This document shows positions 34,475 through 64,000 of a DNA stretch of 64,000 bases, piece by piece. Source of the DNA: Comamonas terrigena NBRC 13299 (GTDB lineage Bacteria; Pseudomonadota; Gammaproteobacteria; Burkholderiales; Burkholderiaceae_C). The position numbers and the translations under genes are program-made. The stretch's first letter is position 1. Every line of letters begins with the position of its first letter. The stretch spans positions 248,001 to 312,000 of the forward strand of contig NZ_AP019749.1 in NCBI RefSeq assembly GCF_006740045.1, written 5' to 3'. The notes under the pieces are model-generated. The model was not told the DNA's origin, did not search any database, and saw nothing but the letters and a program-made list of their open reading frames with translations.

Positions 34475-36565
34475 TTATCCCACGGTGCCCAGGACTTTCA
34501 GTTCCTTGCCTTCGGGCACTTCGTTGAAGGACAGCACCTGCAGGCCCTGGGCAAACAGGCGCGCATAGCGGGCCAGCAGCGGGCGCAGCTGGGGCGTGAC
34601 CAGCAGGATGGGCGCGGTGGCCTGCTGCTTCATCAGGTCACGCGCATGTGCCATGTGCTCCTGCAGCTGGCCGAGCAGGCTGGGATCCACCGGGTAATTG
34701 TCCAGCGGTACTTTCTTGTTGGTGTGGCGGGCGCTGCTGAGGGCGCCCAGCAGCAGCTGCTCCAGCTCCGTGCCCAGGGTGAAGGCCTTGATCTCGGGGG
34801 CCGTGCTGACGAGCTGGCGGCGCAGTGCGCAGCGCACTTCGGCGGTCAGCAGGATGGGGTCCTTGGTGGTGTCGATGCTGTCCAGCAGCGCGGTGGCGAT
34901 CTGCACAATGTCCTTCAGGGCCACCCCTTCACGCAGCAGCTGCTTGAACACGGCGTGCTGCAATTGGGCCGGACAGGCCTTTTCCAGCGCGGCGGCCAGC
35001 TTGGGCGACAGGGCATTGAGCCGTTCGTGCAAGGCATGCACATCGTCGTGGCGGATCAGCTCGTCCAGGTGCTGGCGCACCACGCGCGTCACATGGGTGG
35101 CGACAATGCTGACGCAGTCCGCCACCTGGTAGCCCATGCCCAGGGCATGGGCCTTGTCCTTGGGGTCGATCCAGGTCACCGGCAGCTGGTAGGCCGGTTC
35201 GATGCCGGGAATGCCGTCGAGCTGGCCGTACACATGGGGCGAGGGAATGGCCATCAGCTTGTCGGCGTGCACCTCGGCCTTGGCGACGATGCTGTCGTTG
35301 ATCAGGATGGTGTACTGGTTGGGAGGCAGGGTCAGGTCGTCGCGCACATGGACCGGGGGCAGGACAAAGCCCATTGCCTCGCTGACGCTCTGGCGCACGC
35401 CCTTGAGCCGTGTGGCCAGCGGTGCGCCCTGCCCGGGGTCGAGCTGGCTGACCAGGCGGTAGCCCACGCGCACCGACAGCTGCTCGGTGATGGGCAGGCT
35501 CTGCCAGCCAAAATCCTGCACGGCCGCCGCGGTCACGCTCTGCAGCAGACCCAGGTTGTCGGGCGCCGGCTGCACGCCCCCGGGCTGCTTGGCCATGGCC
35601 CAGCCACCCAGCACCAGCACCGCGGCAAACGCCAGGAAAGGCATCCAGGGCATGCCGGGGATCAGGCCCAGCACCAGCATCACGCCGGCGGCGCTGTACA
35701 GCACGGCCGGCTTGGCCAGCAGCTGCTGGCGCACCTGGTCCGAGAACTCGCCGGCATCCGCATCGCTGATGCGGGTGACGATCACCGCCGATGCGGCCGA
35801 CAGCAGCAGCGCCGGGATCTGGGCGACCAGGCCGTCACCGATGGTCAGCAGCGCATACAGGCGGAATGACTCGCCCAGCGGCAGATCGTGCATCAGCGAG
35901 CCGATGGCCACGCCGCCGATCAGGTTGATGATCAGGATCAGGATGGAGGCAATCGCATCGCCCCGCACAAACTTGGAGGCACCGTCCATGGCGCCGTAGA
36001 AGTCGGCTTCGGTGGCGACTTCCTTGCGCCGCGTCTGGGCCTGCTGCTGGTTGATCAGACCGGCGTTCAGGTCGGCGTCGATGGCCATCTGCTTGCCGGG
36101 CAGCGCATCCAGCGTGAAGCGGGCCGAGACTTCCGAGATCCGCTCCGCGCCTTTGGTCACCACCACGAAGTTGATGATCATCAGGATGATGAACACCACC
36201 AGGCCGACGACGAAATTGCCGCCGATCACCACGTTGCCGAAGGACTCGATCACATGGCCGGCGGCATCGGGTCCGTTCTGGCCGTGCAGCAGCACCACGC
36301 GGGTCGATGCCACGTTCAGGCCCAGGCGCATCAGGGTGGTGACCAGGATGATGGTGGGGAAGACGGCAAAGTCCAGCGGCCGCTTGACGCCCACGGCCAC
36401 CAGCACCACCACCAGCGACAGCACGATGTTGAAGGTGAAGAAGATGTCCAGCGCCAGCGGAGGCAGCGGCAGCATGACCATGGCCAGCAGCGCCAGCAAA
36501 AACACAGGCACAGCCCATTGGTGGCGGGACAGAGCCTGGCGCAGTTCGGTGACGTAGTGCTTCAT
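34475..36565 (-). CDS. flhA: Flagellar export gate protein FlhA
   Basis: A 696-residue inner-membrane export gate component. There are about eight helices in the first 320 residues, with FHIPEP-family hallmarks such as PTIILVTTLMRLGLNVASTR and GKQMAIDADLNAGLINQQQA, then a cytoplasmic domain that forms the nonameric ring receiving substrates and chaperones. It is the last gene of the leftward arm and overlaps flhB by four bases. Overall it resembles FlhA of lateral (Flag-2) systems in gene order, though sequence alone does not prove that. Confidence 0.96.
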   Translation of the reverse strand: MKHYVTELRQALSRHQWAVPVFLLALLAMVMLPLPPLALDIFFTFNIVLSLVVVLVAVGVKRPLDFAVFPTIILVTTLMRLGLNVASTRVVLLHGQNGPDAAGHVIESFGNVVIGGNFVVGLVVFIILMIINFVVVTKGAERISEVSARFTLDALPGKQMAIDADLNAGLINQQQAQTRRKEVATEADFYGAMDGASKFVRGDAIASILILIINLIGGVAIGSLMHDLPLGESFRLYALLTIGDGLVAQIPALLLSAASAVIVTRISDADAGEFSDQVRQQLLAKPAVLYSAAGVMLVLGLIPGMPWMPFLAFAAVLVLGGWAMAKQPGGVQPAPDNLGLLQSVTAAAVQDFGWQSLPITEQLSVRVGYRLVSQLDPGQGAPLATRLKGVRQSVSEAMGFVLPPVHVRDDLTLPPNQYTILINDSIVAKAEVHADKLMAIPSPHVYGQLDGIPGIEPAYQLPVTWIDPKDKAHALGMGYQVADCVSIVATHVTRVVRQHLDELIRHDDVHALHERLNALSPKLAAALEKACPAQLQHAVFKQLLREGVALKDIVQIATALLDSIDTTKDPILLTAEVRCALRRQLVSTAPEIKAFTLGTELEQLLLGALSSARHTNKKVPLDNYPVDPSLLGQLQEHMAHARDLMKQQATAPILLVTPQLRPLLARYARLFAQGLQVLSFNEVPEGKELKVLGTVG

Positions 36566-37701
36566 GGTGCAGGAGACGGATCAGACAGTTCGGTAGGGAC
36601 GTCCAGCGCGTGCGGCATCTCCGGGCGTGCAGGGCGCTGGCCCTGGCGGAAGGCCTTGATCTGCAGCACGTAATGCAGCACCTGGGCCACGCTGCGGTAG
36701 AGCACGGCCGGGATCTGCTGGTTGACTTGGCTGGTGTGGTAGACGGCGCGCGCCAGTGCCGGGATGCTGACGACCTCGACCTGGTGCTGCAGCGCGATCT
36801 CGCGGATGTAGAAGGCCATCTCGTCCACGCCCTTGGCGATCACATACGGCGCTTCGGCCCGCTGGGTGTCGTAGCGCACGGCCACGGCAAAGTGTTCGGG
36901 GTTGACGATCACGGCATCGGCCTTGGGGACGGTGGCACGCACGCTGCGCCGGGCCAGCTGCCGCTGGATCTGGCGGATGCGGTTTTTCACTTCCGGGCGG
37001 CCTTCGTTGCTCTTGTGCTCTTCCTTGACTTCCTGCTTGCTCATGCGCTGGCTGCGCAGAAAGAAAAAGCGCTGCAGCGGAACGTCGATCAGCGCCAGGA
37101 TGACGAAGATGACCACGATGGACATCACGCCGGACAGGAACAGGGCAATGCCTTCCCGCACCGCCAGGTCCAGGGTCATCGAAGGCAGTGCGGTGAAATG
37201 GCGCACATTGGCCTTGCAGTAGGCGTAGACCACGCCGGCCACGGTCGCAGCCTTGAGCACGGACATCAGCAGGTCGCCGTAGTGCTTGGCCTTGAAGAAC
37301 TTCGACAGGTTCTGTTTCGGGCTCAAGCGGCTGAACTTGGGCTGCAGGTTCTTTGGCGACAGCAGCCAGCCGCCAGGAAACAGGGACGCGACGGCCACCA
37401 GCAGCGGGGTGATGAACAGCGGCAGCAGCATCTGGGCGAACAGCATCCCGGCATCGGCCCAGACGGCCCCCACCATGGCGTCGATGGTGCCGGTACCGGA
37501 GGCATCGTCCAGGCCGCGCTGGAACAGGCCGTGGAATTTGCGCAGGTAGTCGGGCATGAACAGCGCCGTCACCTGCAGCGTGACCACCAGCCCCACCGCC
37601 GTGGCCAGGTCGCGCGAGCGCGCCACCTGGCCTTCTTCGCGCATTTTGCGCAGCTTGTGGTCGGAGGCCCGTTCGGACTTGTCGCCTGCACTGTCTGCCA
37701 T
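36562..37701 (-). CDS. flhB: Flagellar export switch protein FlhB
   Basis: A 379-residue inner-membrane protein: four helices in the first 215 residues and a cytoplasmic domain that, after self-cleavage, switches export from rod/hook to filament substrates. The cleavage motif, normally NPTH, reads NPEH at 267-270 (VIVNPEHFAVAVRY), keeping the catalytic Asn-Pro but with Glu in place of Thr. The C-terminal part extends about 30 residues, Pro-rich. Start MADSAGDKSE at 37701, typical; fliR ends five bases upstream. Confidence 0.95.
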   Translation of the reverse strand: MADSAGDKSERASDHKLRKMREEGQVARSRDLATAVGLVVTLQVTALFMPDYLRKFHGLFQRGLDDASGTGTIDAMVGAVWADAGMLFAQMLLPLFITPLLVAVASLFPGGWLLSPKNLQPKFSRLSPKQNLSKFFKAKHYGDLLMSVLKAATVAGVVYAYCKANVRHFTALPSMTLDLAVREGIALFLSGVMSIVVIFVILALIDVPLQRFFFLRSQRMSKQEVKEEHKSNEGRPEVKNRIRQIQRQLARRSVRATVPKADAVIVNPEHFAVAVRYDTQRAEAPYVIAKGVDEMAFYIREIALQHQVEVVSIPALARAVYHTSQVNQQIPAVLYRSVAQVLHYVLQIKAFRQGQRPARPEMPHALDVPTELSDPSPAP

Positions 37702-37705
37702 CTGC

Positions 37706-38482
37706 TCAGGCTTTCATCATCAGGGTCAGCATGTCCAGCGCGCGCCGGGTCATCTGCAGGTAGTGGGCCGGGATGTGGCGCAGCATGAAGGCGAGCATGG
37801 CCAGGCCGAACAGCGTGACGACGGAAAAGCCCAGCGCAAAGATGTTCAGGCTGGGGGAGATGCGGGCCATGAAGCCAAAGCCCAGCTGCACCAGCATGGC
37901 GGCAAAGATGATGGGCGTGGCCAGCAGAAAGGCGGCGGCAAACACCCAGCCCATGTTGTAGGCCACGGTCTGCAACTGCAGCCGGTTCAGGCTCTGGCCC
38001 ACCGGCCAGGCATCGAAGCTGGCCGAGACGATGCCGGCCACCAGCAGGTGGATGTCCAGCACAAAGAACAGCAGCATGCCCAGCAGCAGGGCCAGCACCG
38101 ACAGCGCATCGGAGGAGCTGCCGTTCACCGGGTCGTTGAGCATGGCCATGGCCAGGCTGGTCTGGGAGGCGCTCAGAAACCCGAAGATGCTCAGTGCGGT
38201 CGTGGCGAACTGCAGGCCCAGGCCCAGCACGGCGCCAATGGCGATCTGCTCCAGCGTCAGGGCCACGGCCGTCAGCGAAAACGCATTCACGGAAATGACG
38301 GCACTGCTGACCGAGGGCAGGGCCACCACGGCCAGGGTCAGCGCGATCGTGACCCGCACCCGCACCGGGACGGTGGGGTCGCCGAAGATGGGGGCAAACG
38401 CCAGCAGGGCCATGATGCGGGCAAACGGCCACCACAGGATCTGCAGCCAGTGCAGCAAAAAGGGGTAGAGGCCTTGCTCCAT
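37706..38482 (-). CDS. fliR: Flagellar export protein FliR
   Basis: A 258-residue membrane protein that forms part of the helical FliPQR export channel. About six hydrophobic helices; FAPIFGDPTVPVRVRVTIAL and GLQFATTALSIFGF are typical. It lies between fliQ and flhB with spacers of only a few bases. Confidence 0.94.
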   Translation of the reverse strand: MEQGLYPFLLHWLQILWWPFARIMALLAFAPIFGDPTVPVRVRVTIALTLAVVALPSVSSAVISVNAFSLTAVALTLEQIAIGAVLGLGLQFATTALSIFGFLSASQTSLAMAMLNDPVNGSSSDALSVLALLLGMLLFFVLDIHLLVAGIVSASFDAWPVGQSLNRLQLQTVAYNMGWVFAAAFLLATPIIFAAMLVQLGFGFMARISPSLNIFALGFSVVTLFGLAMLAFMLRHIPAHYLQMTRRALDMLTLMMKA

Positions 38483-38490
38483 GGCGGTGG

Positions 38491-38760
38491 TCAGCCCAGC
38501 AGCGTGCTGGCGTACTGGAAGAAGCGCACGCAGAAATCCATCAGCTGGGTGACCAGCCAGCGCGCGCTCACTGCCAGGGCCAGCAGCGTGACCATCAGGC
38601 GGGGCAGAAAACTCAGCGTCTGCTCGTTGATTTGCGTGGCGGCCTGGAACAGGCTGACCAGCAGGCCCACGATCAGGCCCGGAACCACCAGCACGGCCAC
38701 GATCACGAGCACCAGCTGGATGGCCTGCAGCAGCAGGTCGACCGCGATATCGGGCGTCAT
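38491..38760 (-). CDS. fliQ: Flagellar export protein FliQ
   Basis: An 89-residue protein with two membrane helices (about 12-38 and 50-75), MTPDIAVDLLLQAIQLVLVI at the start and AATQINEQTLSFLPRL between them, the conserved FliQ core. Several copies pack around FliP/FliR in the export gate. Confidence 0.95.
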   Translation of the reverse strand: MTPDIAVDLLLQAIQLVLVIVAVLVVPGLIVGLLVSLFQAATQINEQTLSFLPRLMVTLLALAVSARWLVTQLMDFCVRFFQYASTLLG

Positions 38761-38764
38761 GGCG

Positions 38765-39532
38765 CTACAGCCCCTGGACGCTGGTGACCAGCGTGTTGAC
38801 CGTCAGGGACCAGCCGTCCACCAGCACGAAAAGCAGGATCTTGAAGGGCAGCGAAATCACCAGCGGAGACAGCATCATCATGCCCATGGCCATCAGCACC
38901 GAGGAGACGACCAGGTCGATCACCAGAAACGGAATGAAGAGCACGCAGCCGATCATGAAGGCGGTTTTCAGCTCGCTCAGCACGAAGGCCGCGACCTTGA
39001 CGGTGAAGGCATGGTCCTGGGGCGTGGCGACCGGGCCTTCCTTGGCCAGTGCGCTGACCTGTTTCAGTGCTGCCTCATGGGTCTGTGCCAGCAGGAAGTC
39101 CGACATCGGTTTTTCGGCGCGCCGCAGTGCATCGATCAGGCTGATCTGGTCTTTTTCGTACGGCTCGAAAGCCTCGGTCCACAGCCGCTCCCCCACCGGG
39201 CGCATGACCAGCAGGGTCAGGATCAGCGCCACGCCGGTCAGCACCCGGGTCGGCAGGCCCTGCTGCAGACCCAGTGCGGAGCGCAGCAGTGCCAGCACGA
39301 TGATGAAGCGCGTGAACGTCGTCATCATCAGTGCCATCATGGGCAGCAGGCCCAGCAGCGTCATCAGGACCAGCACCTCGGTCTTGACCGAGAGCTGGGT
39401 CACGCCATGGGCTTGCTGGCTTTCCATCAAGGGAATGTTCGCGGCCTGCGCCACGGGCAGCCAGGCGCAGAGGCAGGCTGCCAGCGCCCACCAAACAAGG
39501 GCGCGATGCGCCCTGTGACGGTGCGGTTCCAT
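38765..39532 (-). CDS. fliP: Flagellar export protein FliP
   Basis: A 255-residue export-gate subunit with a signal peptide (residues 1-30, ending AQA) and four helices. Conserved stretches are LLPMMALMMTTFTRFIIVLA and FLVIDLVVSSVLMAMGMMML. The ATG at 39532 was chosen since it begins the signal peptide. It starts only 19 bases after the fliN stop, which leaves no room for fliO. Confidence 0.95.
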   Translation of the reverse strand: MEPHRHRAHRALVWWALAACLCAWLPVAQAANIPLMESQQAHGVTQLSVKTEVLVLMTLLGLLPMMALMMTTFTRFIIVLALLRSALGLQQGLPTRVLTGVALILTLLVMRPVGERLWTEAFEPYEKDQISLIDALRRAEKPMSDFLLAQTHEAALKQVSALAKEGPVATPQDHAFTVKVAAFVLSELKTAFMIGCVLFIPFLVIDLVVSSVLMAMGMMMLSPLVISLPFKILLFVLVDGWSLTVNTLVTSVQGL

Positions 39533-39551
39533 GCGGGTGTGCGGCGCTGGC

Positions 39552-39905
39552 TCAGAGGCCCAGGGCGGGCAGCTCGGCATGCAGCTCCAGCACCTTGAGG
39601 CCGTAGGATTCACCGCAGACCACCACCTCGCCCTTGCCGATGGCGGCACCGTTGACCTTGATGGTCAGCGGCTCGCCCACGATGGTGTCCAGCGGCACCA
39701 CGCTGTCCGGCCCCAGATCGGCCAGTTCCTGCAAGGTGATACGGGCGGAGCCGGCTTCCAGCGTCAGGGTCACGGGAATGCGGTGCAGAAAGGGCGACAG
39801 GCGCTCGGGTTCCGGGAGGGCCGGGGCCAGGGCGGGCGCTTCGGGGGCCGCTTCCGCGTTGCCCGCCAGCAGGTCTTGCAGGTCCATGTTGTTGTCGAGT
39901 TCCAT
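39552..39905 (-). CDS. fliN: Flagellar C-ring protein FliN
   Basis: A 117-residue switch protein. The C-terminal SpoA domain is clear (RIPVTLTLEAGSARITLQEL, then PLDTIVGEPLTIKVNGAAIG and KGEVVV). With FliM it forms the lower C-ring and binds FliH-FliI export complexes. It lies five bases after the FliM-like gene. Confidence 0.94.
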   Translation of the reverse strand: MELDNNMDLQDLLAGNAEAAPEAPALAPALPEPERLSPFLHRIPVTLTLEAGSARITLQELADLGPDSVVPLDTIVGEPLTIKVNGAAIGKGEVVVCGESYGLKVLELHAELPALGL

Positions 39906-39910
39906 AGTCT

Positions 39911-40687
39911 TTATTCCAAGGTCTCAAAGGCAGTCAGGTGCAGCTTGCCGTGGTGTTCGGCCACCGATGCGGTGAGCAGGGCTTCGCCGTTGAGCAGCAC
40001 CGTGGTGCGCCCCAGGGCAATCGGTAGCACGCTGCCCCGTCGCAGCGCCTGGATGTCGGCGGTGGACACGGTTTTTTCCAGCAGGCGTGCGGTCAGCTCC
40101 ACCTGCAGCGGGGCCGCCGGTTTGGCCGCGCCCGGCGGGGCGGTGCGCTGGGTGCGGCGCAGCTGCAGCGCGTAATGCTCCAGCGTGCGGCTGGCATCGG
40201 CATCCAGCGTGATATGCAGCGGCTGCCAGTCGCTGTCCCCCACCTGGATGCGTGCCTGCCATTGCCAGGCGCTCGCCGACGTGGAAGGGGGGCTGTCCAG
40301 CGCCGCACCGGCCTGGGCGCACAGCGCGGCAACGGCGCGCAGCACCGCGTCCTGCAGGGCCTGGCCAATGCGCCGCTCGGTGCTGCTGGGAGGGGTGTCG
40401 GGGGCATCCGCCTGACCGTCGGCAGTGAAGCCATAGCGGGCCGCCATATGGGCGAGCACGGTGGCGCGCTGCAACTCAATTTGTAACGCCTGGGGTGCGA
40501 CACCTGGCAGCGGCGTGAAGTGGGCGTGCGCGATCTGGATGGCAATCGGACGGTGGCCGGTGCCATGCAGCTGTGCCTGTACATGCTGTGCCAGATCGGC
40601 CGCCAACTGATCGAAGGCTTGCACCGGGCGCCCCAGCAAGACGGGGTTCAGGGTTTTGATGTTCTGCACAGTAGATATCTTTTTCAC
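39911..40687 (-). CDS. fliM: Short FliM-like C-ring protein
   Basis: A 258-residue protein, about 70 residues shorter than classical FliM. The last 75 residues are a SpoA domain (QVELTARLLEKTVSTADIQA, RGSVLPIALGR.TVLLNGEAL). The N-terminus (MKKISTVQNIKTLNP) has no EIDALL-type CheY-binding segment, and I cannot find the GGxG loop by which FliM binds FliG. Position just before fliN identifies it; short FliM of this kind is known from lateral flagellar systems. It begins the leftward arm, divergent from fliE. Confidence 0.8.
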   Translation of the reverse strand: MKKISTVQNIKTLNPVLLGRPVQAFDQLAADLAQHVQAQLHGTGHRPIAIQIAHAHFTPLPGVAPQALQIELQRATVLAHMAARYGFTADGQADAPDTPPSSTERRIGQALQDAVLRAVAALCAQAGAALDSPPSTSASAWQWQARIQVGDSDWQPLHITLDADASRTLEHYALQLRRTQRTAPPGAAKPAAPLQVELTARLLEKTVSTADIQALRRGSVLPIALGRTTVLLNGEALLTASVAEHHGKLHLTAFETLE

Positions 40688-40875
40688 CTTTTATTTAAGG
40701 TGTGGCGTCACGCAAAATGAGGCTGATACAGAGGGCAACACAGGGGATATGGAATGTATTGCGAAATCGCTAGTATTTGTATCAGTTGTGAATAGTATAC
40801 TGTTCGTGCAACAACTTATTCCCTCGAAATCAGCGACGCACCTGTGCAGATGGGTGCTGTCGGTGGCGCAGGGGC
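40688..40875. promoter_or_regulatory. Divergent promoter region, fliM / fliE
   Basis: An AT-rich 188-base region drives both arms. The most striking element is the near-perfect palindrome GAATAGTATACTGTTC (40790-40805, one mismatched pair), which contains a -10-like TATACT without a matching -35; this suggests activator-dependent transcription. No sigma-28 or sigma-54 promoter of correct spacing is visible. Confidence 0.5.
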
Positions 40876-41217
40876 ATGCCGATGAACATCGAACCCTCAA
40901 GCCTTTTGCTGCAGACCCGGGGCGCTTTTGCGCAGTTCGTGCCGCCCCAGCTGGACCAGGCGCCCGTCATGCCCGCAGCCGGCCAGCAGGCCGCAGGCAG
41001 CGGCTTTCTGCACCTGATGGAAAACGCCGTGCTGTCCGTGGATGCCCAGGGGCGTGCCGCTTCGGACCGGATGGCCGCGGTCGATGCGGGCAAAAGTGAT
41101 GACCTGGTCGGGGCCATGCTGTCCAGCCAGGAAGCCAGTCTGTCGTTCTCCATGTTGATGCAGGTGCGCAACAAGGTGATGGGAGCGATGGACGAGGTCG
41201 TGAAGCTCCAGGTTTGA
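40876..41217 (+). CDS. fliE: Flagellar hook-basal body protein FliE
   Basis: A 113-residue protein linking the MS-ring to the rod. The conserved C-terminus is present (SSQEASLSFSMLMQVRNKVM and AMDEVVKLQV). ATGs at 40876 and 40882 are both possible. It starts the rightward arm, 16 bases before fliF. Confidence 0.92.
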   Translation: MPMNIEPSSLLLQTRGAFAQFVPPQLDQAPVMPAAGQQAAGSGFLHLMENAVLSVDAQGRAASDRMAAVDAGKSDDLVGAMLSSQEASLSFSMLMQVRNKVMGAMDEVVKLQV

Positions 41218-41233: not shown

Positions 41234-42928
41234 GTGTTGGATTCCCTTAAAAAACGCTTCGCAGGCATGCCTGCCGCACAGAGCGTGCTTTCTTTCTCGT
41301 CCTCTCCCGGTATGGCGCGTGTCGCCGTGCCGCTGGTGCTGGCGGCGGCCCTCGTCACGGCGCTGGTGGTGCTGGTGCTGTGGCAGAGCAGCGGCAACTA
41401 CCGCCCCCTGTTCGGCGCCCGCGAGAACGTGGTGACCTCGGATGTGGTGGCGGCTCTGGAGGCCGATGGCCTGAAGTACCGCCTGCATCCGGATTCCGGC
41501 CAGGTGCTGGTGGCCGAGTCCGATCTGGGGCGCGCCCGCATGCTGCTGGCCGCCAAGGGCGTGGCGGCCAAATTGCCCGAAGGCCTGGAGCTGATGGACC
41601 GCAACGATCCGTTGGGGGTGAGCCAGTTTGTGCAGGACGTGCGCTTCCGCCGCGGCCTGGAAGGCGAGCTGGCGCGCAGCATCACCACCCTGGATGCGGT
41701 GGCTGCGGCACGGGTGCACCTGTCGATTGCACGCTCGTCGTCGTTCGTGGTGAACACCGGGGACAAGAGCTCGGCATCGGTGGTGCTGCAGATGCAGCCG
41801 GGGCAGCAGCTCAAGCAGGAACAGATCGCCGCCATCATCCACATGGTGTCCAGCAGCGTGGCCGGACTGGATCCCCAGCGCGTGGCGCTGACCGACCAGG
41901 CGGGCAATTTCCTGTCGGCCCGCGTGGACCTGTCGGAAGGCTTCGATCCGCTGGCGCAGGAAGGCCAGGCCGGCAAGCTGAGTGCCGAGCTGCGCCAGAA
42001 CGCCCAGGAGCTGCTGACCGCCGCCGTGGGGGCGGGGCATTTCCGTGTGACGGTGACGGCCGATCTGAGCCAGGACCGCACCGAAGAGTCTTACGAACAG
42101 TACAACGGCGATCCGCGCGTGCTCAGCGAAGCCACGCGGGAAGAAAACGACCGCAGCGGCGGGGTGGCCCTGGGCGTGCCCGGCTCGCTGAGCAACCGTC
42201 CGGTGAATGTGCCCTCCGAACCGGAGTCCAAGGACGGCAAGGATGCCAACAACAGCAACTTCCGCGCCGCCGTGTCGCGCAACTACGCCTACGACCGCAG
42301 CGTGGTCCAGGTCAAGCGCGGCAAGGGCCGCATCAACAAGCTGCATGTGGCGGTGATCCTGGACGACACCGTGGCGCCCAAGGGCAGCACCGCGTGGAGC
42401 CCGGAAGCGTTGCAGCGCGTGGAGAAGCTGCTGCGCGTGGGCATGGGCGTGGACAGTGTGCGGGGCGACCAGATTGCAGTCTCCAGCATGCCATTTACCG
42501 TGCCGCCCCCGGTGCCCCAGTGGTGGGAAGAGCCGGCCAACTGGTATGGCGCGGTGGTGATGGTGCTGTGGACCATCGCCGGCGGGGTGGTGCTGGTGCT
42601 GCTGGTGCGCCTGGTGAATGCGGTGCTGCGCCATCTGCGCGAAGGCGCCAAGACGGCCGCCGCGGTGGCGCAGGCCGCTCCGGCCCTGGCGGGTGGCGGC
42701 GAGACCGACCTTGCACTGCTGCAGGCGCCGGACAGCGCCCGGGTGTCCACGACCGATATGTCGATGGTGCCCTTGCTGGAGAACGTGGACCTGCCGCCCC
42801 CGGGCTCGGAAGTGGATGTGATGGTGGAGCATTTGCGCACGCTGGCGGCCAAGGAGCCGGAGCGCGTGGCGGAAGTGGTCAAACAATGGGTGCAAAAACA
42901 TGGCCAACCAGTCGGTAGCGAGCGCTGA
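41234..42928 (+). CDS. fliF: MS-ring protein FliF
   Basis: A 564-residue inner-membrane ring protein. Two membrane helices (about 32-53 and 430-455) flank the periplasmic ring-building domains; DRNDPLGVSQFVQDVRFRRG and TLDAVAAARVHLSIARSS, then the RNYAYDRSVVQVKRGKG region, are characteristic. The C-terminal tail binds FliG. The start is a GTG at 41234 (a TTG codon follows immediately). Its last 29 bases overlap fliG. Confidence 0.96.
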   Translation: MLDSLKKRFAGMPAAQSVLSFSSSPGMARVAVPLVLAAALVTALVVLVLWQSSGNYRPLFGARENVVTSDVVAALEADGLKYRLHPDSGQVLVAESDLGRARMLLAAKGVAAKLPEGLELMDRNDPLGVSQFVQDVRFRRGLEGELARSITTLDAVAAARVHLSIARSSSFVVNTGDKSSASVVLQMQPGQQLKQEQIAAIIHMVSSSVAGLDPQRVALTDQAGNFLSARVDLSEGFDPLAQEGQAGKLSAELRQNAQELLTAAVGAGHFRVTVTADLSQDRTEESYEQYNGDPRVLSEATREENDRSGGVALGVPGSLSNRPVNVPSEPESKDGKDANNSNFRAAVSRNYAYDRSVVQVKRGKGRINKLHVAVILDDTVAPKGSTAWSPEALQRVEKLLRVGMGVDSVRGDQIAVSSMPFTVPPPVPQWWEEPANWYGAVVMVLWTIAGGVVLVLLVRLVNAVLRHLREGAKTAAAVAQAAPALAGGGETDLALLQAPDSARVSTTDMSMVPLLENVDLPPPGSEVDVMVEHLRTLAAKEPERVAEVVKQWVQKHGQPVGSER

Positions 42929-52803: not shown

Positions 52804-52844
52804 AAACTGTCATCATGCAAAGCAGCAAACTCAGAGGCTCCCGG

Positions 52845-56301: not shown

Positions 56302-56960
56302 GCTTGATCAACAGCGCCTCCGGCACGGGCACCAACGCCGGCTCCAGCAGCAGCGACGCCATCTCGCAGGCCCTGGGCGGCACCGAACTGGGCCAGATGT
56401 TCACCAAGCTGCTGGTGGCCCAGGTGCAGTACCAGGACCCGCTGGAGCCCACGGATTCCAGCACCTTCGTTACCCAGCTCACGCAGCTGAGCCAGACGGA
56501 GTCGCTGCAGTCGCTGACGTCGCAGCTCAAGACCCAGTCCTCCATTCTGGACAGCCTGCAGACCATGCAGCTGGGCAGCCAGGTCGGCTCCACGGTCATG
56601 GTCGCCACCAACAGCGTGCAGCTGGACGACAGCACCGTGAATGCCGTGGTCAATCTGCCGGCCACGGCCGATCTGACGCTGCAGCTGACGGCCCCGGATG
56701 GCAAGGTGACCACGGTCAGCCTGGGCTCCAACGCGGTGGGCGATGCCAACTTCACCATCGACCCCGCCGCGCTGGGCCTGCCTGCGGGCAAGTACGGCAT
56801 CGTGGTCAAGGATGCCAGCGGCACCAGCTACCCCGTGGAAGTGGCGGGCACGCTGCAGGCCGTGCGCCTGACGTCGAGCGGCAGCGTGGCCCTGCAGGTG
56901 CAGGGCCTGGGCGATGTGCTGCCTTCCAGCGTGACGCGTTTCGTGGGTCAGAAGGCCTGA
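56298..56960 (+). CDS. flgD: Hook cap protein FlgD
   Basis: A 220-residue hook scaffold. FTKLLVAQVQYQDPLEPTDS with SSTFVTQLTQLSQTESLQSL (given in parts) identifies it, and an Ig-like C-terminal half follows. It is needed for polymerising FlgE. flgE starts 42 bases later. Confidence 0.95.
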   Translation: MSLINSASGTGTNAGSSSSDAISQALGGTELGQMFTKLLVAQVQYQDPLEPTDSSTFVTQLTQLSQTESLQSLTSQLKTQSSILDSLQTMQLGSQVGSTVMVATNSVQLDDSTVNAVVNLPATADLTLQLTAPDGKVTTVSLGSNAVGDANFTIDPAALGLPAGKYGIVVKDASGTSYPVEVAGTLQAVRLTSSGSVALQVQGLGDVLPSSVTRFVGQKA

Positions 56961-57002: not shown

Positions 57003-58184
57003 ATGAGCTTCCAGATTGCGCTGTCGGCGCTCCAAGCGATCAACAACCAGCTCGACAACATCTCGCAGAACATCGCCAACACCGGCACCACGGGCTACAA
57101 GTCCAGCCGCACCAACTTCGCGGCCATGTATGCCGGCTCGTCGCCCAACGGCGTGCGCGCCGCCTCCACCACCCAGACCCTGGATGTGGCGGGCGGTCTG
57201 CTGAGCACCGGCCGCAACCTGGATGTGGCCATCGCGGGCAATGGCTACTTCATGGTGAAGGACAGCACCGGCGTGATGAACTACACCCGTGTCGGCGTGT
57301 TCGATGTGGACAAGCAGGGCGTGCTGGTGGACCACATGGGTCGCCAGGTGCAGGGGTACGGCGTGACCGCCGGCAATGCGGCCCTGGGCAATCTGGGCAA
57401 CCTGACGGTGCCGACCGGCCAGATCCCGGCGCAGGCCAGCACCTCGGTGGACTTCGTGGCCAATCTGTCGGCGGACTGGAGCGTGCCGGCCAATGCGTTC
57501 AACCCCACGGATTCCAGCAGCTACAACAGCTCGACCGTGTCCGTGGTGTATGACTCGCTGGGTCGCCAGCACACCGTCACCCAGTACTTCGTCAAGACGG
57601 CGAACAACACGGTGGAAGTGCACTACCAGAACGAAAACACCGCCGTGGGCACCAGCACGCTGAAGTTCACGACTGCAGGGCAGCTGGACACCGCGGCTTC
57701 CACCGTTGCGGCCGTGAACCTGACACCGGCCGGCGCGAATGCGCTGTCGGTGACGTTCGACTATGCCGGCACCACCCAGTTTGCCGGTGACACCTCGACC
57801 ACCACCAATGCCTCGGACGGCTATGCCTCGGGCACGATGGTGAATGTGCTGGTCGGCGCCGATGGCTCGGTGAATGCGCAGTACAGCAACGGCATGGTGC
57901 AGAGCGTGGGCGTGATCGCGCTGGCCACTTTCCCCAGCGACAGCGGGCTGACGGCCGTGGACGGCACCAGCTGGCAGGCTTCGGCCAAGTCCGGTGCCGC
58001 ACTGATCGGCACCCCTGGCACGGGGCAGCTGGGCGAGCTGGAAAGCCAGCAGCTGGAGCAGTCGAATGTGGAAGTCGCATCCGAGCTGGTGGACCTGATG
58101 GGCGCGCAGCGCAACTACCAGGCCAACACCAAGGTGATCAGCACGCAGAACGAAATCATGCAGTCGCTGATGCAGGTGATGTAA
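57003..58184 (+). CDS. flgE: Flagellar hook protein FlgE
   Basis: A 393-residue hook subunit: QNIANTGTTGYKSSRTNFAA at the N-terminus, and QSNVEVASELVDLMGAQRNY with QANTKVISTQNEIMQSLMQV at the C-terminus. The central part is Thr/Ser/Gly-rich. Followed by flgF after 16 bases. Confidence 0.96.
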   Translation: MSFQIALSALQAINNQLDNISQNIANTGTTGYKSSRTNFAAMYAGSSPNGVRAASTTQTLDVAGGLLSTGRNLDVAIAGNGYFMVKDSTGVMNYTRVGVFDVDKQGVLVDHMGRQVQGYGVTAGNAALGNLGNLTVPTGQIPAQASTSVDFVANLSADWSVPANAFNPTDSSSYNSSTVSVVYDSLGRQHTVTQYFVKTANNTVEVHYQNENTAVGTSTLKFTTAGQLDTAASTVAAVNLTPAGANALSVTFDYAGTTQFAGDTSTTTNASDGYASGTMVNVLVGADGSVNAQYSNGMVQSVGVIALATFPSDSGLTAVDGTSWQASAKSGAALIGTPGTGQLGELESQQLEQSNVEVASELVDLMGAQRNYQANTKVISTQNEIMQSLMQVM

Positions 58185-58200: not shown

Positions 58201-58923
58201 ATGGACAAGCTGATCTATACCGTCATGACGGGCGCGGAGCGTGCGTTCCATGCCCAGCAGGTGCACGCCAACAACCTGGCCAATGCCGACACCACGGGCT
58301 TTCGTGCCGACTACGAAGTGGCCGGCACGCAGGCCGTGGGCGGGTATGGCTACGACAGCCGCCACCAGAGCACTGGGGCCACGGATGTGGTGTCGCAGCG
58401 CCTGGGGGCGGTGCGCGAAACCGGGCGCGATCTGGACGTCGCCGTGCTGGGCCAGGGGCTGATCACGGTGGCGGACGCCGGCGGCGAGGCCTATACCCGT
58501 GCCGGTGCCATGCTGGTGGACAGCGAAGGCAATCTCTCCATCAACGGCCGGGCAGTGCTGGGCGATGGCGGACCGATTGTGCTGCCGCCGTTTCGCGTCC
58601 TGTCGGTGGCCGAGGATGGCACCGTGTCCATCCTGCCGGAGAACGGGACCGAGATGCAGGAAGTCGACCGGCTGAAGCTGGTGGACGGCAGTCAGCCCAT
58701 GACCAAGACCACCGCAGGTCTGCTGGTGTCGCGCAGCGGCGAAGCCCTGCCCGCCAGCGAGACCGTGCGCGTGCGCAGCGGCGCGCTGGAGTCGTCCAAC
58801 GTGCAGGCCGTGGAGGAGATGGTGGCCGTGATGGACATCAGCCGCCAGTTTGAAATCCAGATGAAGTTGTATCAGGCCGCCGACGGCATGGCCGAGGCCG
58901 GCAACCGGCTGCTGCGTGATTGA
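58201..58923 (+). CDS. flgF: Proximal rod protein FlgF
   Basis: A 240-residue rod protein. HANNLANADTTGFRADYE and ALESSNVQAVEEMVAVMDIS with RQFEIQMKLYQAADGMAEAG (in parts) are conserved. It lies between flgE and flgG; length is normal. Confidence 0.95.
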   Translation: MDKLIYTVMTGAERAFHAQQVHANNLANADTTGFRADYEVAGTQAVGGYGYDSRHQSTGATDVVSQRLGAVRETGRDLDVAVLGQGLITVADAGGEAYTRAGAMLVDSEGNLSINGRAVLGDGGPIVLPPFRVLSVAEDGTVSILPENGTEMQEVDRLKLVDGSQPMTKTTAGLLVSRSGEALPASETVRVRSGALESSNVQAVEEMVAVMDISRQFEIQMKLYQAADGMAEAGNRLLRD

Positions 58924-58977
58924 GTTGCAGTGCGTCGCCCGCCAGGGTGACAGGGACCACGTAAAAGGAACACCACC

Positions 58978-59763
58978 ATGAATCCCGCTTTGCTCGTGAG
59001 CAAGACCGGCCTGCAGGCCCAGGACGCCAAGTTGCAGGTGATTGCGCACAATCTGGCCAACGTAAACACCGTGGGCTTCAAGCGCAACAGTGCAGCGTTT
59101 GAAGACCAGTTCTATGAAATCACCCGCATGCCGGGCAGCAACAGCCAGGGCGACAACCGCGTGCCCGCCGGCGTGCAGCTGGGCACCGGCGTGCGGCTGG
59201 TGTCCACGCACAAGCAGTTCACCGAAGGCAGCATGCAGAACACCAGCCAGCAGCTGGATGTGGCCATCGTGGGCAATGGCTTTCTGCAGGTGCTGCAGGC
59301 GAACGGCGATACGGCCTATACCCGTGCCGGTCAGCTGCAGGTGGACAACGAAGGCCGCCTGGTCAACGCCAACGGCTTGCCGCTGCAGCCGGAAATCACC
59401 ATCCCCGAAGGCGCCAAGTCGGTGACCATCAGCGAAACCGGTCTGGTCAGCGCCATGGTGGGCACGGATGCCACCGCGCAGGAGCTGGGCACGCTGCAAC
59501 TGGCCACGTTCGTGAACCCGGCCGGCCTGCAGGCCCAGGGCGACAACTTGTACCTGGTGTCGCAAGCCAGCGGCGATGCGGTGCTGGGCGAGCCCGGGGA
59601 AGCCGGCTTCGGCACGCTGCGCCAGTTCGCGCTGGAAAGCTCCAACGTGCAGGCGGTGGAAGAAATGGTGGACATGATCTCGGCCCAGCGCAGCTACGAG
59701 ATGAACACCAAGGTGCTGTCCGCTGCGGACGACATGATGCGCAACCTGGCGCAAGCTGCATGA
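58978..59763 (+). CDS. flgG: Distal rod protein FlgG
   Basis: A 261-residue distal rod protein, very conserved: VIAHNLANVNTVGFKRNSAA, EGSMQNTSQQLDVAIVGNGF and ESSNVQAVEEMVDMISAQRS. Overlaps flgH by four bases (ATGA). Confidence 0.97.
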   Translation: MNPALLVSKTGLQAQDAKLQVIAHNLANVNTVGFKRNSAAFEDQFYEITRMPGSNSQGDNRVPAGVQLGTGVRLVSTHKQFTEGSMQNTSQQLDVAIVGNGFLQVLQANGDTAYTRAGQLQVDNEGRLVNANGLPLQPEITIPEGAKSVTISETGLVSAMVGTDATAQELGTLQLATFVNPAGLQAQGDNLYLVSQASGDAVLGEPGEAGFGTLRQFALESSNVQAVEEMVDMISAQRSYEMNTKVLSAADDMMRNLAQAA

Positions 59764-60443
59764 TCTGCCGCGCTGCATGGGTGCTGCGCTGGCGTGCGGC
59801 GGGTGCTGCGCTGGCCTTGCTGGCGCTGGCAGGTTGCGCGGTGCGCCCGCCCGAGGTGATGCAGCCGGCCGAATCGGTGCCGGAGTTTCTGATGGCGCCG
59901 CAGGCCAGGGCCCAGGGCGGCGGGCTGTTCGTGCCCCATGCGTCCACAGGCCTGGTGGCCGACCAGCGTGCGCACCGCGCTGGCGACATCCTGACGGTGT
60001 TGCTGGAAGAGGTGACCCAGGCCAGCAAGAAAGCCAATACCCAGACCAGCAAGGGCAGCAGCGTCGGCATCTCGCCGCCCATTCTGGGCGGCAAGAGCAT
60101 CAAGGCCGACATCGAGCTGGAAGGCAGCAGCAAGTTCAGCGGCGGCGGCAGCAGCACGCAACAGAATGCGCTGTCCGGAGCCATGACCGTCATCGTCCAG
60201 CAGGTGCTGCCCAACGGCCTGCTCTACATCAAGGGCGACCGCGCGCTGTCGCTCAACCAGGGCGATGAAGTGCTGCGCCTGAGCGGCTATGTGCGCGCCA
60301 CCGATGTGGACCTGAACAACCGCGTGTCCTCGCTGCGCGTCGCCAATGCGCGCATCAGCTACTCGGGCCATGGCGCGCTGTCCGATGCCAGCGAAGCTGG
60401 CTGGCTGACACGCTTCTTCCAAAGCCCGCTTTTCCCCTTCTGA
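59760..60443 (+). CDS. flgH: Flagellar L-ring protein FlgH
   Basis: A 227-residue outer-membrane lipoprotein; the lipobox is LAGC with C26. It forms the L-ring bushing. The family features are [32 protein letters not shown]-like region ([20 protein letters not shown]) and [16 protein letters not shown]. Starts inside flgG; flgI begins two bases after its stop. Confidence 0.95.
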
Positions 60444-60445
60444 TC

Positions 60446-61624
60446 GTGATGATGTTTGCACGCCTGCTGTCTCGTTTCCTCTGTCGCGGTGCCATGGCCC
60501 TGGTGCTGGCAGGTCTGGCCCTGCCTTCCGGGGCGCAGCCCGCGGGCAAAACGGTGCGCGGTGCCGAGGCGGGCGCCAAGACCAGCATGCGGCCCCTGCG
60601 CCATCTGGTGCATGTCGAAGGCGTGCGCGAAAACCAGCTGATCGGTTACGGCCTGGTGGTGGGCCTGAACGGCACGGGCGACAGCACGCAGGTCAAGTTT
60701 GCGGGCCAGTCCGTGGCCAATATGCTGACCCAGTTCGGCATCAAGCTGCCCGAGAAGACCAGCACCAAGTTGAAGAACGTGGCCACGGTGATGGTCAGCG
60801 GGGTGTTCCCGCCGGGCTACCGCAAGGGCCAGAGCATCGACGTGACCGTGTCCTCGCTGGGCGATGCGAAAAGCCTGCGCGGCGGCATGCTGCTGATGGC
60901 GCCGCTGCGCGGGGTGGACAACGAGATCTATGCCATCGCCCAGGGGCAGCTGGTGGTGGGGGGCTTGAATGCCACCGGCAACAGCGGCTCCAGCGTCACC
61001 GTCAATACGCCCACTTCCGGCCGCATTCCCAACGGCGCCACGGTGGAGCGCGAGATCCCTTCCGACTTCGAGAGCGGCGAGACCGTGCTGCTGTCGCTGC
61101 GCCAGCCGAGCTTTCGCACGGCCCGCAATATCGTCCAGGCCATCAACACGCGCTACGGCGATATCGCCAGCACGCGCGATGGCACCAGCATCGAGGTGCG
61201 CGCACCGCTGGTGCCGACGCAGCGGGTCGGCTTTGTTGCCGACCTGCAGGATCTGCAGGTGGCCATGGGGCAGGAGCTGCCGCGCGTGGTCTTCAATTCG
61301 CGCACCGGCACGGTGGTGATTGCCGAAGGCGTCACGGTCAAGGCGGCCGCCGTCTCGCACGGTGCGCTGCGCGTGGTGATCCGCGAGCAGTCCAATGTCA
61401 GCCAGCCGGCACCGTTCAGCCAGGGCAACACCGTGGTGACGCCGGAGTCGAACGTGCAGGTGCAGGAGGGCAATGGGCACATGTTCGAGTGGCCTGCCGG
61501 TGCCAAGCTGCAGACCATCATCGACACCATCAACCGCACCGGTGCCTCGCCGGACGACATCATGTCCATCCTGCAGGCCCTGGACCAGGCCGGTGCACTG
61601 CATGGCGAGCTGGTGGTGATCTAA
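60446..61624 (+). CDS. flgI: Flagellar P-ring protein FlgI
   Basis: A 392-residue periplasmic ring protein with a signal peptide (about residues 1-32). [20 protein letters not shown] and [20 protein letters not shown] are conserved. The start may be GTG at 60446 or ATG at 60449 or 60452. It needs FlgA for assembly. The FlgJ rod-binding gene follows after 11 bases. Confidence 0.96.
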
Positions 61625-61635
61625 AGGGACACCCC

Positions 61636-62013
61636 ATGGAAACCTCCACCACCCGCCTTGCCGCCGAACGTCCCACGGTCCCCGCCGGAGAGGCTGGCCA
61701 ACCCCCCGTGGCCGCGGCACAGCCTGCCGACGACGCGACCGTGCAGCGCCTGACGGCTGCCGCAGTGAAGTTCGAAGGCTTTTTTGTCGCCCAGATGTTG
61801 AAGCAGATGCGACAGGCCACGGCGGCGATGGCCGATTCCGGCAGTGCCATCAATGACCGGGTCAATGACAGCACGCTGGCATTGGCCGAGCAGACCGTGG
61901 CCGACGGACTGGCGGGTCAGCGCGCATTTGGGATCGCCGATGTGCTGGTGCGGCAGATGCTGCCCCAGTCCGGCGCGGCAGTGAACGCTGCGGGAACAAG
62001 GAAACTTTCATGA
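61636..62013 (+). CDS. flgJ: FlgJ-like rod-binding protein (N-terminal half only)
   Basis: A 125-residue protein matching the rod-capping domain of FlgJ (AAVKFEGFFVAQMLKQMRQA, and later LALAEQTVADGLAGQRAFGI with ADVLVRQML). It ends where the peptidoglycan hydrolase domain would begin in the roughly 310-residue enterobacterial protein. The hydrolase is a separate gene at 53592-54401. It overlaps flgK by four bases. Confidence 0.9.
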   Translation: METSTTRLAAERPTVPAGEAGQPPVAAAQPADDATVQRLTAAAVKFEGFFVAQMLKQMRQATAAMADSGSAINDRVNDSTLALAEQTVADGLAGQRAFGIADVLVRQMLPQSGAAVNAAGTRKLS

Positions 62014-63395
62014 GCATGCTTTTCAACGGACTGACCGGTGTGGTGGCCTCGCAGGTCGCCCTCAATACCGTCAGCCACAACCTGGCGAATGCCCTGACCC
62101 CCAACTACACCCGCCAGGGCGTGGTGCTGACGGCCAAGGCGTCGGCCAACACCGCGCTGTCCGCTGGCGACGGGGTGGCCGTCACGTCGTTGATCCGCTA
62201 TGCCGACAGCTACAAGACCCAGCAGATGTGGCGCGCTGCCAGCACCAAGGGGGAATACGAGGCAGCGCAGACCTACCTGCTGCAGCTGGAACAGGTGATG
62301 GGCGATGCCGATGGCGGCATCAACGCCGCGCTGGACAAATTCTTCAGCGCCCTGAGCGCCACCAGCGTAGAGCCCACGTCCACGCCGCTGCGCCAGCAGA
62401 TCATCGAAGCCGCCAAGGCGCTGGGCCAGACCATCAACAACATCGGCCAGATCGTGTCCAACCAGGCGCTGGCCGTGCGCCAGCAGCGTGCCGTGGCGGT
62501 GGACCAGGTCAATTCCTATATCCACGAAATTGCCGCGCTGAACGACAAGATCACGCAGAGCGCCGGTGCCGGGCTGAATACCTCCTCGCTGCAGGACCAG
62601 CGTGACGCCAAGGTCGACGAGCTGTCCAAGCTGGTGGGCCTGCAGACGACCACGCAGCCGGATGGCTCCATCAATCTGTCGCTGCGCGGCGGCCAGCCCC
62701 TGGTGGTGGGCAACCGTGCCTCCACGGTCAGCGTGGATGCGGGTTCGCAGTTCCTGAGCGTGAGCTTCGGGACCGAGACGTTCCAGCTGGGCGCCGAGAA
62801 CTGGGGCGGAACCCTGGGCGGCCTGGCAGCGCTGGAGAGCGATGTGCTGCAGCCCCTGGATGCGTCCATCCGCGGGCTGGCGCAGGTCATTGCCAGCGAA
62901 ACCAATGCGGTGCTGCAGTCGGGCTATGGCACCAATGGTGCTGCAGGGACGGACCTGTTCGTGTTCGATGCCACCTCCACCTCGGCCATGCTGACGGTCA
63001 GCGCCGGCATCACCCCGGAACAGCTGGGCCTGTCGGGGGACCCCGCCAAGGTCGGCGACAGCACCAAGCTGCAGGAGCTGATTGCCTTGCAGAGCAAGGC
63101 CGTGAACATCTATGGCCCCGGAGGCACCGGCATGGTGGGCAGCTCCGTGCTGCTGGGGGATGTGTACACCCAGCTGGTGGGCAAGCTGGCCATGTACAGC
63201 CAGCAGAACAACGCTTCCTATGAAACGGCGCAGACGGTGCGCGACCAGTCGGAATCGAACTGGCGCTCCACCAGCGCGGTCAACACCGATGAAGAGGCGG
63301 TGAACCTGATGCAGTACCAGCAGATGTACCAGGCCAATATGAAGGTCATCACCGTGGCCAACGAGCTGTTCGACAGCCTGCTGGAAATGCGCTGA
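62010..63395 (+). CDS. flgK: Hook-filament junction protein FlgK
   Basis: A 461-residue junction protein (HAP1), shorter than the 540-odd residues usual in Enterobacteria; the shortening is in the variable middle. N-terminal NTVSHNLANALTPNYTRQGV and C-terminal TDEEAVNLMQYQQMYQANMK plus VITVANELFDSLLEMR are conserved. Starts inside the flgJ gene and is followed by flgL after 36 bases. Confidence 0.95.
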   Translation: MSMLFNGLTGVVASQVALNTVSHNLANALTPNYTRQGVVLTAKASANTALSAGDGVAVTSLIRYADSYKTQQMWRAASTKGEYEAAQTYLLQLEQVMGDADGGINAALDKFFSALSATSVEPTSTPLRQQIIEAAKALGQTINNIGQIVSNQALAVRQQRAVAVDQVNSYIHEIAALNDKITQSAGAGLNTSSLQDQRDAKVDELSKLVGLQTTTQPDGSINLSLRGGQPLVVGNRASTVSVDAGSQFLSVSFGTETFQLGAENWGGTLGGLAALESDVLQPLDASIRGLAQVIASETNAVLQSGYGTNGAAGTDLFVFDATSTSAMLTVSAGITPEQLGLSGDPAKVGDSTKLQELIALQSKAVNIYGPGGTGMVGSSVLLGDVYTQLVGKLAMYSQQNNASYETAQTVRDQSESNWRSTSAVNTDEEAVNLMQYQQMYQANMKVITVANELFDSLLEMR

Positions 63396-63431
63396 GGCGC
63401 ACCACCCATTCACGGACAAGGATTTCAGGCC

Positions 63432-64000
63432 ATGCGCGTATCCAGCAACCAGTACCACATCACCGTCAACGCCTCGCTGCAGAACTCCAACACCCAGCTG
63501 GAGAAGCTGATGGGGCAGATGTCCAGCGGCAATCGCCTGACGCGGCCCAGCGACGACCCCATCGCCCATGTGCGCATTTCGCGCCTGCAGCGCGAGGAGG
63601 CCAGCATCGCGCAGTACAAGGACAACATCGGTGCGCTCTCCAACCGCATGACGCAGAGCGAGACCGTGCTCAGCAGCATCAACAGCGACCTGCTGAGCAC
63701 GCGCGATCTGCTGGTGTGGGCCCTGGATGGCGGCAACACCGGCGAGGACCTGAGCGCCATGGCCACGAACCTGGAGTCCTTGCGCGATGCCCTGTACGCC
63801 AGCGCGCTGACCAAGGACCAGGAAGGCTCCTACCTGTTCTCCGGCACCCTGTCCAAGACCGCAACCGTGGGCTTCAACGCCGCGGCGGCCGCCGGTACCC
63901 GCTACACGGTGGGCGGCAACAGCGAACAGCAGCAGGTGGTGGTGGGCAATGGCCTGACCCAGCCTGCGAACGTGACGCTGGGCGATGAAATGGCGGCCAT
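63432..64000 (+). CDS. flgL: Hook-filament junction protein FlgL, 3' partial
   Basis: The frame is open from the ATG at 63432 to the right edge (189 codons visible). MRVSSNQYHITVNASLQNSN, then LEKLMGQMSSGNRLTRPSDD and PIAHVRISRLQREEA, with the flagellin-like N-terminal helix pattern, identify HAP3. LFSGTLSKTA marks the start of the middle domain. The C-terminal helix lies beyond the window; the flagellin gene is expected further right. Confidence 0.93.
   Translation, partial: MRVSSNQYHITVNASLQNSNTQLEKLMGQMSSGNRLTRPSDDPIAHVRISRLQREEASIAQYKDNIGALSNRMTQSETVLSSINSDLLSTRDLLVWALDGGNTGEDLSAMATNLESLRDALYASALTKDQEGSYLFSGTLSKTATVGFNAAAAAGTRYTVGGNSEQQQVVVGNGLTQPANVTLGDEMAA

Follow-up and report, generated by a model that had tools for sequence, protein, structure and literature searches.

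Our analysis indicates that a 64,000-base stretch of the genome of Comamonas terrigena NBRC 13299 (bases 248001-312000 of a one-contig genome of 4,673,011 bases, ~4.67 Mb; hereafter, the window, with positions past 64000 given as window-equivalent coordinates) very probably carries a lateral-type (laf/Flag-2) secondary flagellar locus, of the betaproteobacterial branch and with a working that can be predicted from its genes. The locus lies between a peroxiredoxin gene, which itself follows genes of the S10 operon, and a GNAT gene, and has genes of its own for export gate, ATPase, C-ring, rod, rings, hook, cap, stators, sigma-28, FlgM and flagellin (the LafA-type flagellin, sigma-28, FlgM and stators by Pfam and NCBIfam). 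The gene content and the two divergent arms that a preliminary description, made from the sequence, had placed at 34475-64000 were borne out by open reading frames, Pfam and BLAST, but the locus does not end at 64000, since flgL runs past that point and is followed by genes for a LafW-like protein, a PilZ protein and the flagellin (lafA). Likewise, on the left of flhA, the genes at 32859-33437 (minus strand) and 33638-34387 (plus strand) are also part of the inserted block.

The same description had called the locus secondary and suggested searching the genome for a second flhA/flagellin set with cheA. Such a set exists: a second FlhA is encoded at genome positions 454553-456562, three flagellins at 471-474 kb and cheA at ~493 kb, that is, a primary flagellar set with cheA lies ~124 kb further along the genome. 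This primary region, from FlgL (439681) to FliR (489881), holds homologues for 27 of the 40 locus proteins, and CheA, FliM, FliG, a flagellin, a CheY-like receiver and FliA were confirmed there by Pfam. Two further flagellin_N genes (G000:C1:2723861-2724271 and 3107027-3107266, in frames of 571 and 376 aa) are distant from both flagellar loci. In a midpoint-rooted FlhA tree of 50 rows, the check that had also been proposed, the window FlhA groups with lateral rather than primary systems at 100/100; specifically, it joins three congeners (100/100) and then nine other betaproteobacterial lateral rows (100/100), and the lateral side of the tree (100/100) also holds Vibrio, Enterobacter, Hafnia, E. 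coli Flag-2, Stutzerimonas and Endozoicomonas. The primary FlhA of the same genome is found among the primary betaproteobacterial rows and the window FlhA is not; a Zooshikella FlhA, labelled lateral beforehand, grouped with the primaries. A primary-type FlhA was also found in all of the searched genomes with named lateral loci (11/11; 9 beta- and 2 gammaproteobacterial).

The remaining genes point in the same direction. All 19 comparable locus genes (i.e., those with a match in both the Flag-2 set and the primary region) gave a better score against E. coli Flag-2 than against the genome's own primary copy, the Flag-2 set being 30 proteins of E. coli NZ_CP104632 without FlhB, FliR, FliQ and FlgD-I; FliI, for instance, is 62% identical to E. 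coli Flag-2 and 52% to the primary copy. The LafW-like gene shares with LafW 27% identity over 294 residues (E-value 4e-7, single comparison) and the position after flgL; an E. coli LafW query in tblastn (E 1e-3) did not reach it, and it matches no Pfam family. The best NCBIfam match of lafA is lat_flg_LafA_2, with 329.7 bits and thus below its cut-off of 365. As for the E. coli record itself (NZ_CP104632.1, a 100-kb plasmid record), its Flag-2 locus stands alongside genes such as fadE, dinB and pepD, and its fliJ and flgN are separated by hypothetical and glycosyltransferase genes; the hypothetical gene after its flgN gave no Pfam match.

The content and the grouping flhA-flhB-fliR-Q-P-N-M opposite fliE-F-G-H-I-J are common to E. 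coli Flag-2, as had been stated, and the window's order as a whole (flhA-flhB-fliRQPNM / fliE-F-G-H-I...fliD-S...fliK-L-A-motA-B-flgM-N-glucosaminidase-flgA / flgB...flgL) is indeed unlike that of the gammaproteobacterial lateral loci. It is not unique, however, but is shared with the lateral loci of Roseateles, Massilia, Methylibium and Pseudorhodoferax, and by Chromobacterium up to the glucosaminidase gene, while a Ralstonia contig shows a permuted part. The order recurs in other betaproteobacterial lateral loci and therefore marks the betaproteobacterial branch. The glucosaminidase gene was matched at the same place in six of the six named betaproteobacterial loci; FlgJ is split in two, into this gene (53565-54401) and a rod-cap gene (61636-62013). 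In the genus itself, the flagellin gene sits at the flg end. Chromobacterium, Massilia, Methylibium and Pseudorhodoferax have it on the flhA side and Ralstonia next to fliM; the Roseateles stretch read showed no copy. Tandem lafA copies occur in two congeners (two in G049 and three in G044, vs. one here).

Within the genus the locus is carried by four of 53 genomes, and in the family sample lateral FlhA was found in 24/399 genomes and 16/141 genera. The distance from rpsC to the GNAT gene is 1.7-2.5 kb in all four non-carriers examined (i.e., an empty site) vs. 36-38 kb in the three carriers (3/3) for which both flanks were found; the insertion site is identical in three carriers, the fourth shares the left flank, and no tRNA gene was found at the insertion in 28000-64000. 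Carriers are scattered, with four changes, on a tree of primary FlhA that includes 40 genus genomes (13 of the 53 were omitted, with no primary FlhA found or the sequence not fetched). Between the window and its congeners, lateral FlhA is 89-90% and primary FlhA 86-87% identical, and identity at fourfold sites is 0.64-0.69, which is the saturated level seen between paralogues (0.67 and 0.64 for the window lateral FlhA vs. primary). Recent mobility of the locus among members of the genus was considered and rejected based on these saturated sites, a comparison that rules out recent exchange only. Further FlhA-like proteins in the genus (G002, G003, G006, G010, G027 and G039) show 33-38% identity, which we take to be the level of non-flagellar type III export gates. 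The genus thus offers a natural with/without comparison, with four carriers, clean empty sites in the four non-carriers examined, and a gene pair (below) that is a testable switch candidate.

These data bear on three alternative views of the locus. The earlier suggestion of a sole or primary flagellar system whose gene order is unusual is for all practical purposes refuted by the second FlhA, the primary set and the FlhA tree: nothing besides an order unlike that of gammaproteobacterial lateral loci speaks for it, while a primary set exists elsewhere, the window FlhA stands apart from every primary row, and the same order is found in other betaproteobacterial lateral loci. It is also very unlikely that the locus is present yet unused, as decaying cargo. 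Its patchy presence, in few genomes scattered on the genus tree, would fit such a view, but the frames are intact, and the proteins are 60-97% identical to those of G044/G049 although fourfold sites are saturated, which therefore argues for long purifying selection. Finally, two carrier groups in the genus might have acquired the locus by separate recent transfers, as the scatter of carriers and the higher identity of lateral than of primary FlhA could suggest; the shared insertion site, the left flank of the fourth carrier and fourfold-site identity as low as between paralogues all weigh against this, and we consider it unlikely. Hence, because of the common insertion site and the saturated divergence, we favor, without proof, the old presence of a secondary lateral locus followed by repeated loss over recent transfer.

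The motor of the locus appears to be wired differently from that of the primary flagella. The lateral FliM (258 aa) matches Pfam in its FliN-like C-terminal domain only. Neither this protein nor E. coli Flag-2 FliM nor any of 15 further lateral FliM (8 beta- and 7 gammaproteobacterial) has the N-terminal motif of the LSQxEIDALL type, which is present in both primary or polar FliM inspected (2/2; the genome's own primary FliM and one from Pseudomonas). This survey tried 20 loci, two of which gave no FliN match and one no FliM candidate; the Pfam middle domain of FliM was, further, missing in the three lateral FliM scanned, and the own primary FliM has one. Because the lateral FliM is without the CheY-binding motif, the lateral flagellum should rotate insensitive to CheY; it would push steadily, with no chemotactic switching, next to primary flagella that CheY steers, and would be driven by the locus's own MotAB. 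Since the CheY-binding part is missing in 17/17 lateral FliM of both classes, chemotaxis-independent rotation of the class becomes a testable general claim. The PilZ protein (Pfam PilZ, E 3.5e-6) keeps RxxxR and DxSxxG, at residues 144 and 174, and scores 22.3 bits against NCBIfam YcgR (cut-off 400); the parallel with YcgR and MotL suggests a cyclic di-GMP (c-di-GMP) brake, which would act on the lateral motor at high c-di-GMP.

How the locus is switched on is a separate matter. The lateral flagella of gammaproteobacteria have LafK as their known or predicted switch. All seven gammaproteobacterial lateral loci read have this gene; none of the seven named betaproteobacterial loci and four own-genus carriers does, as judged from the fliE-fliM interval, where it usually lies. 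In the genome studied here, the best LafK match is partial, with 203.6 bits, and lies outside the locus; on the same scale, the lateral loci of two gammaproteobacterial controls gave 337.2 and 310.8 bits, and one control also encodes a 320.6-bit protein elsewhere, so such scores are not exclusive to LafK. Nor is LafZ at its place, the interval from lafW to lafA containing the LafW-like and PilZ genes only (the LafZ query matched none of the loci searched and so had no positive control). Side observations from other loci include a gene next to the Chromobacterium lateral locus (L128:16238-17119) that encodes a BetR domain and a receiver (Pfam), and CRP-like and kinase-like open reading frames noted by eye in the Chromobacterium motB-flgM and Pseudorhodoferax fliM-fliE gaps.

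The promoter regions allow a tentative order of events. Blocks are conserved in the fliM-fliE region in all four carriers and in the flgA-flgB region in the three alignable ones, and ATAGTATNNT occurs in the window at two sites only, 40792 and 55423, against 0.08 expected for a pattern that was derived from these same sites. Alignment with a congener revealed a sigma-28-like lafA promoter, TTTAAGTT-N13-G(T/C)CGCTTA, which the window, G049 and G044 all have. A scan of the locus for the sigma-28 consensus (TAAA-N14..16-GCCGATAA, at most one mismatch) gave no site, and a consensus scan for sigma-54 gave two similar sites, at 48960 inside fliK and at 65376 at the end of the LafW-like gene. Based on this layout, promoters in the fliM-fliE and flgA-flgB intervals would provide for the hook-basal body, hook completion would lead to export of FlgM and hence free LafS, and LafS would then fire lafA from TTTAAGTT-N13-GTCGCTTA.

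Immediately left of flhA, a divergent pair, reg192 (helix-turn-helix, HTH) and hyp249, accompanies the lateral locus in the genus. Relatives of the pair are found on the plasmids RPME01 and pACP3.1, beside conjugation genes; reg192 is 59 and 64% and hyp249 38 and 42% identical to them and the divergent arrangement is kept, but the plasmid copies stand beside icmP/dotM and a gene with a TraM-recognition domain whereas those of the window stand beside lateral flhA. An HTH fold and an adjacent homologous partner were both seen for the pair, and a distant plasmid relative matches HTH_31 below the cut-off (E 0.002). A 245-kb Shewanella plasmid that carries a ParM-type partition gene encodes a 1051-aa protein (L214:4944-8099) whose start is a distant relative of reg192. 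Profiles of both members reached no related solved structure by sequence, the sole strong line being a designed protein over 32 residues. A description of the pair was not found in print, as far as full-text searches on betaproteobacterial lateral flagella and lafK show (titles and abstract openings). The pair may be a replacement switch, with reg192 acting on the locus, or a toxin-antitoxin-like stabiliser that keeps the block in the genome. As a general master regulator of betaproteobacterial lateral flagella reg192 was rejected, being found in none of the nine other tested betaproteobacterial genomes with lateral FlhA (below) and in at least four of the 399 sampled family genomes, of which one, its own, is a lateral carrier (at most seven candidates were scored per genome and weak copies may escape).

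It is intriguing to hypothesize, although only tentatively, that a plasmid-type HTH pair, its partner maybe RES-like, became the switch or guard of a 34-kb, LafK-less lateral locus in this genus, with a putative PilZ brake and a CheY-deaf FliM as inputs separate from those of the primary flagella. Several observations weigh against this picture or against the assignment of the locus as such. LafK and LafZ, both missing, are two of the three Flag-2 marker genes of PMC6993521. Moreover, reg192 is absent in 9/9 other tested betaproteobacterial genomes with lateral FlhA (some of them incomplete assemblies), so that any switch role would be confined to this genus. The sign of an operator common to the pair promoter and the fliE region is marginal: whole regions gave p values of 0.042, 0.052 and 0.024 (window, G049 and G044) and conserved blocks 0.087, 0.007 and 0.20, and the p of 0.001 in G028 reflects a long, poor alignment without motif and with the fliE region on the opposite strand. 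Similarly, the fliE and flgB regions are alike in ATAGTAT only (p 0.16-0.82), and the pair promoter vs. the flgB region gave 0.025 in G049 and 0.58 and 0.95 in two others.

Alternatively, FlhDC of the primary system might switch on the lateral genes, leaving the reg192/hyp249 pair uninvolved. The genome has a single FlhC, at 3.89 Mb, the partial LafK match above is its best, and shared regulators have been suggested for Burkholderia dolosa (PMC5773237); the only point on the other side is that the pair accompanies the locus within the genus, and we regard this alternative as possible rather than probable. (The congener G049 has a second, divergent FlhC-like gene of 49 bits on a separate contig, G049:C2:100131-100652.) It is also quite plausible, if still short of an even chance, that the pair is a divergent relative of Xre-RES toxin-antitoxin modules, brought by a plasmid or integrative element, which guards the block or hitch-hikes with it and is no flagellar switch. 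As to a RES-domain toxin, hyp249 shows only weak structural matches; it has no Pfam RES match, and its best Foldseek row is a kinesin (E 0.34). These structural results make a pure switch less likely and are the ground for considering a toxin-antitoxin-like reading.

The features of the locus are listed below. Pfam confirmed FlhA, FliF, FliG, FliH, FliK, FliA (sigma-70 regions), MotB, FliN, FliD, FlgM, FlgN, FlgA, FliJ, the glucosaminidase domain, the FliM C-terminus, FliE, FliS, MotA, FlgD, FlgE and FlgH; FliT, FliL and the FlgJ rod-binding domain fell below the Pfam cut-off and were assigned by position as well, and FlhB, FliR, FliQ, FliP, FlgB, FlgC, FlgF, FlgG, FlgI and FlgK by BLAST. FliO, FlhF, FlhG and chemotaxis genes were not noticed among the open reading frames by eye, with no search aimed at them.

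Table. Genes and sequence elements of the lateral flagellar locus (window positions)
Feature	Position	Strand	Basis or remark
reg192, 192-aa helix-turn-helix protein	32859..33437	-	
hyp249, 249-aa protein, divergent partner of reg192	33638..34387	+	
flhA (lateral)	34475..36565	-	Pfam FHIPEP E 7.8e-228; tree
flhB	36562..37701	-	88% to congeners, 37% to own primary
fliR	37706..38482	-	BLAST
fliQ	38491..38760	-	BLAST
fliP	38765..39532	-	58% to E. coli Flag-2 FliP
fliN	39552..39905	-	Pfam FliMN_C
fliM, 258 aa, without N-terminal CheY-binding motif	39911..40687	-	Pfam: C-terminal domain only
Near palindrome GAATAGTATACTGTTC in fliM-fliE promoter region	40790..40805		ATAGTATACT at 40792
fliE	40876..41217	+	Pfam E 4.4e-17
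fliF	41234..42928	+	Pfam
fliG	42900..43955	+	Pfam
fliH	43952..44641	+	Pfam
fliI	44638..45987	+	62% to E. coli Flag-2 FliI, 52% to own primary FliI
fliJ	45984..46436	+	Pfam E 4.9e-9
fliD (filament cap)	46473..47939	+	Pfam
fliS (flagellin chaperone)	47963..48361	+	Pfam
fliT (start uncertain)	48351..48653	+	Pfam FliT E 0.0011, below cut-off; position
fliK (start by eye)	48650..49681	+	Pfam Flg_hook E 1.3e-13
fliL	49699..50157	+	Pfam E 7.5e-4, below cut-off; 70% to congeners
fliA/lafS, own sigma-28	50167..50931	+	NCBIfam FliA_WhiG above cut-off; Pfam sigma-70 regions
motA/lafT	50964..51848	+	Pfam; 55% to Flag-2 MotA
motB/lafU	51841..52803	+	Pfam MotB_plug, OmpA
flgM (anti-sigma-28)	52815..53135	+	Pfam E 1.8e-9
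flgN	53132..53605	+	Pfam E 6.9e-12
Separate glucosaminidase (FlgJ muramidase half)	53565..54401	+	Pfam PF01832 E 4.1e-31
flgA	54376..55146	-	Pfam ChapFlgA; TIGR03170
Promoter element ATAGTATGAT 5' of flgB	55423..55432	+	One of two ATAGTATNNT sites in window
Imperfect palindrome GCGCAAGAAATATCTCATGCGC	55441..55462	+	Kept in 2 congeners; sole site in window
flgB	55514..55879	+	48% to Flag-2 FlgB
flgC	55876..56301	+	61% to Flag-2 FlgC
flgD	56298..56960	+	Pfam
flgE (hook)	57003..58184	+	Pfam
flgF	58201..58923	+	BLAST
flgG	58978..59763	+	BLAST
flgH (L ring)	59760..60443	+	Pfam
flgI (P ring)	60446..61624	+	BLAST
flgJ, rod-cap half only	61636..62013	+	Pfam Rod-binding E 0.0075, below cut-off; position
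flgK	62010..63395	+	37% to Flag-2 FlgK
flgL	63432..64346 (window part to 64000)	+	
LafW-like gene	64343-65413		After flgL
PilZ gene (YcgR-like)	65432-66208		Between LafW-like gene and lafA
Flagellin lafA	66326-67159	-	

Lateral flagella have already been described in betaproteobacteria, including Burkholderia dolosa (PMC5773237), where, as here, a lateral set stands beside a polar set and is patchy among close relatives. The B. dolosa genes, however, form several clusters, with FliL and FliT reported missing, whereas the locus of the window is single and contiguous and has FliL, a weak FliT, the HTH pair and a PilZ gene. With the Flag-2 system of Enterobacterales (PMC6993521; Flag-2 is also described in PMC7526173) it shares flhAB-fliRQPNM opposite fliEFGHIJ, the flg arm, the LafW-like gene, lafA and the stators; it differs in being without LafK and, at its place, LafZ, in the fliD...motB block between fliJ and flgM, in lafA being inverted at the far end, and in the glucosaminidase gene after flgN. 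Vibrio lateral flagella are similar in that their FlhA is on the lateral side of the tree and their FliM is without the CheY motif, but V. campbellii has LafK and a laf block beside flhA. The lateral motor of Shewanella putrefaciens is stated to operate outside chemotactic control (PMC8203827), and its MotL system likewise has a PilZ protein encoded within the lateral locus; MotL, encoded downstream of motB, consists of a PilZ domain alone, as opposed to the longer YcgR-like protein between the LafW-like gene and lafA here. Delftia tsuruhatensis, a betaproteobacterium of the Comamonadaceae, the family named in the preliminary description, has a putative lateral flagellum, FLAG-1, said to occur in all strains of the species (PMC9045143), a likeness drawn from the name "lateral" and the family. 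In conclusion, the locus is of a known kind; it is a variant in that it lacks LafK and includes a plasmid-type gene pair and a PilZ gene of its own.

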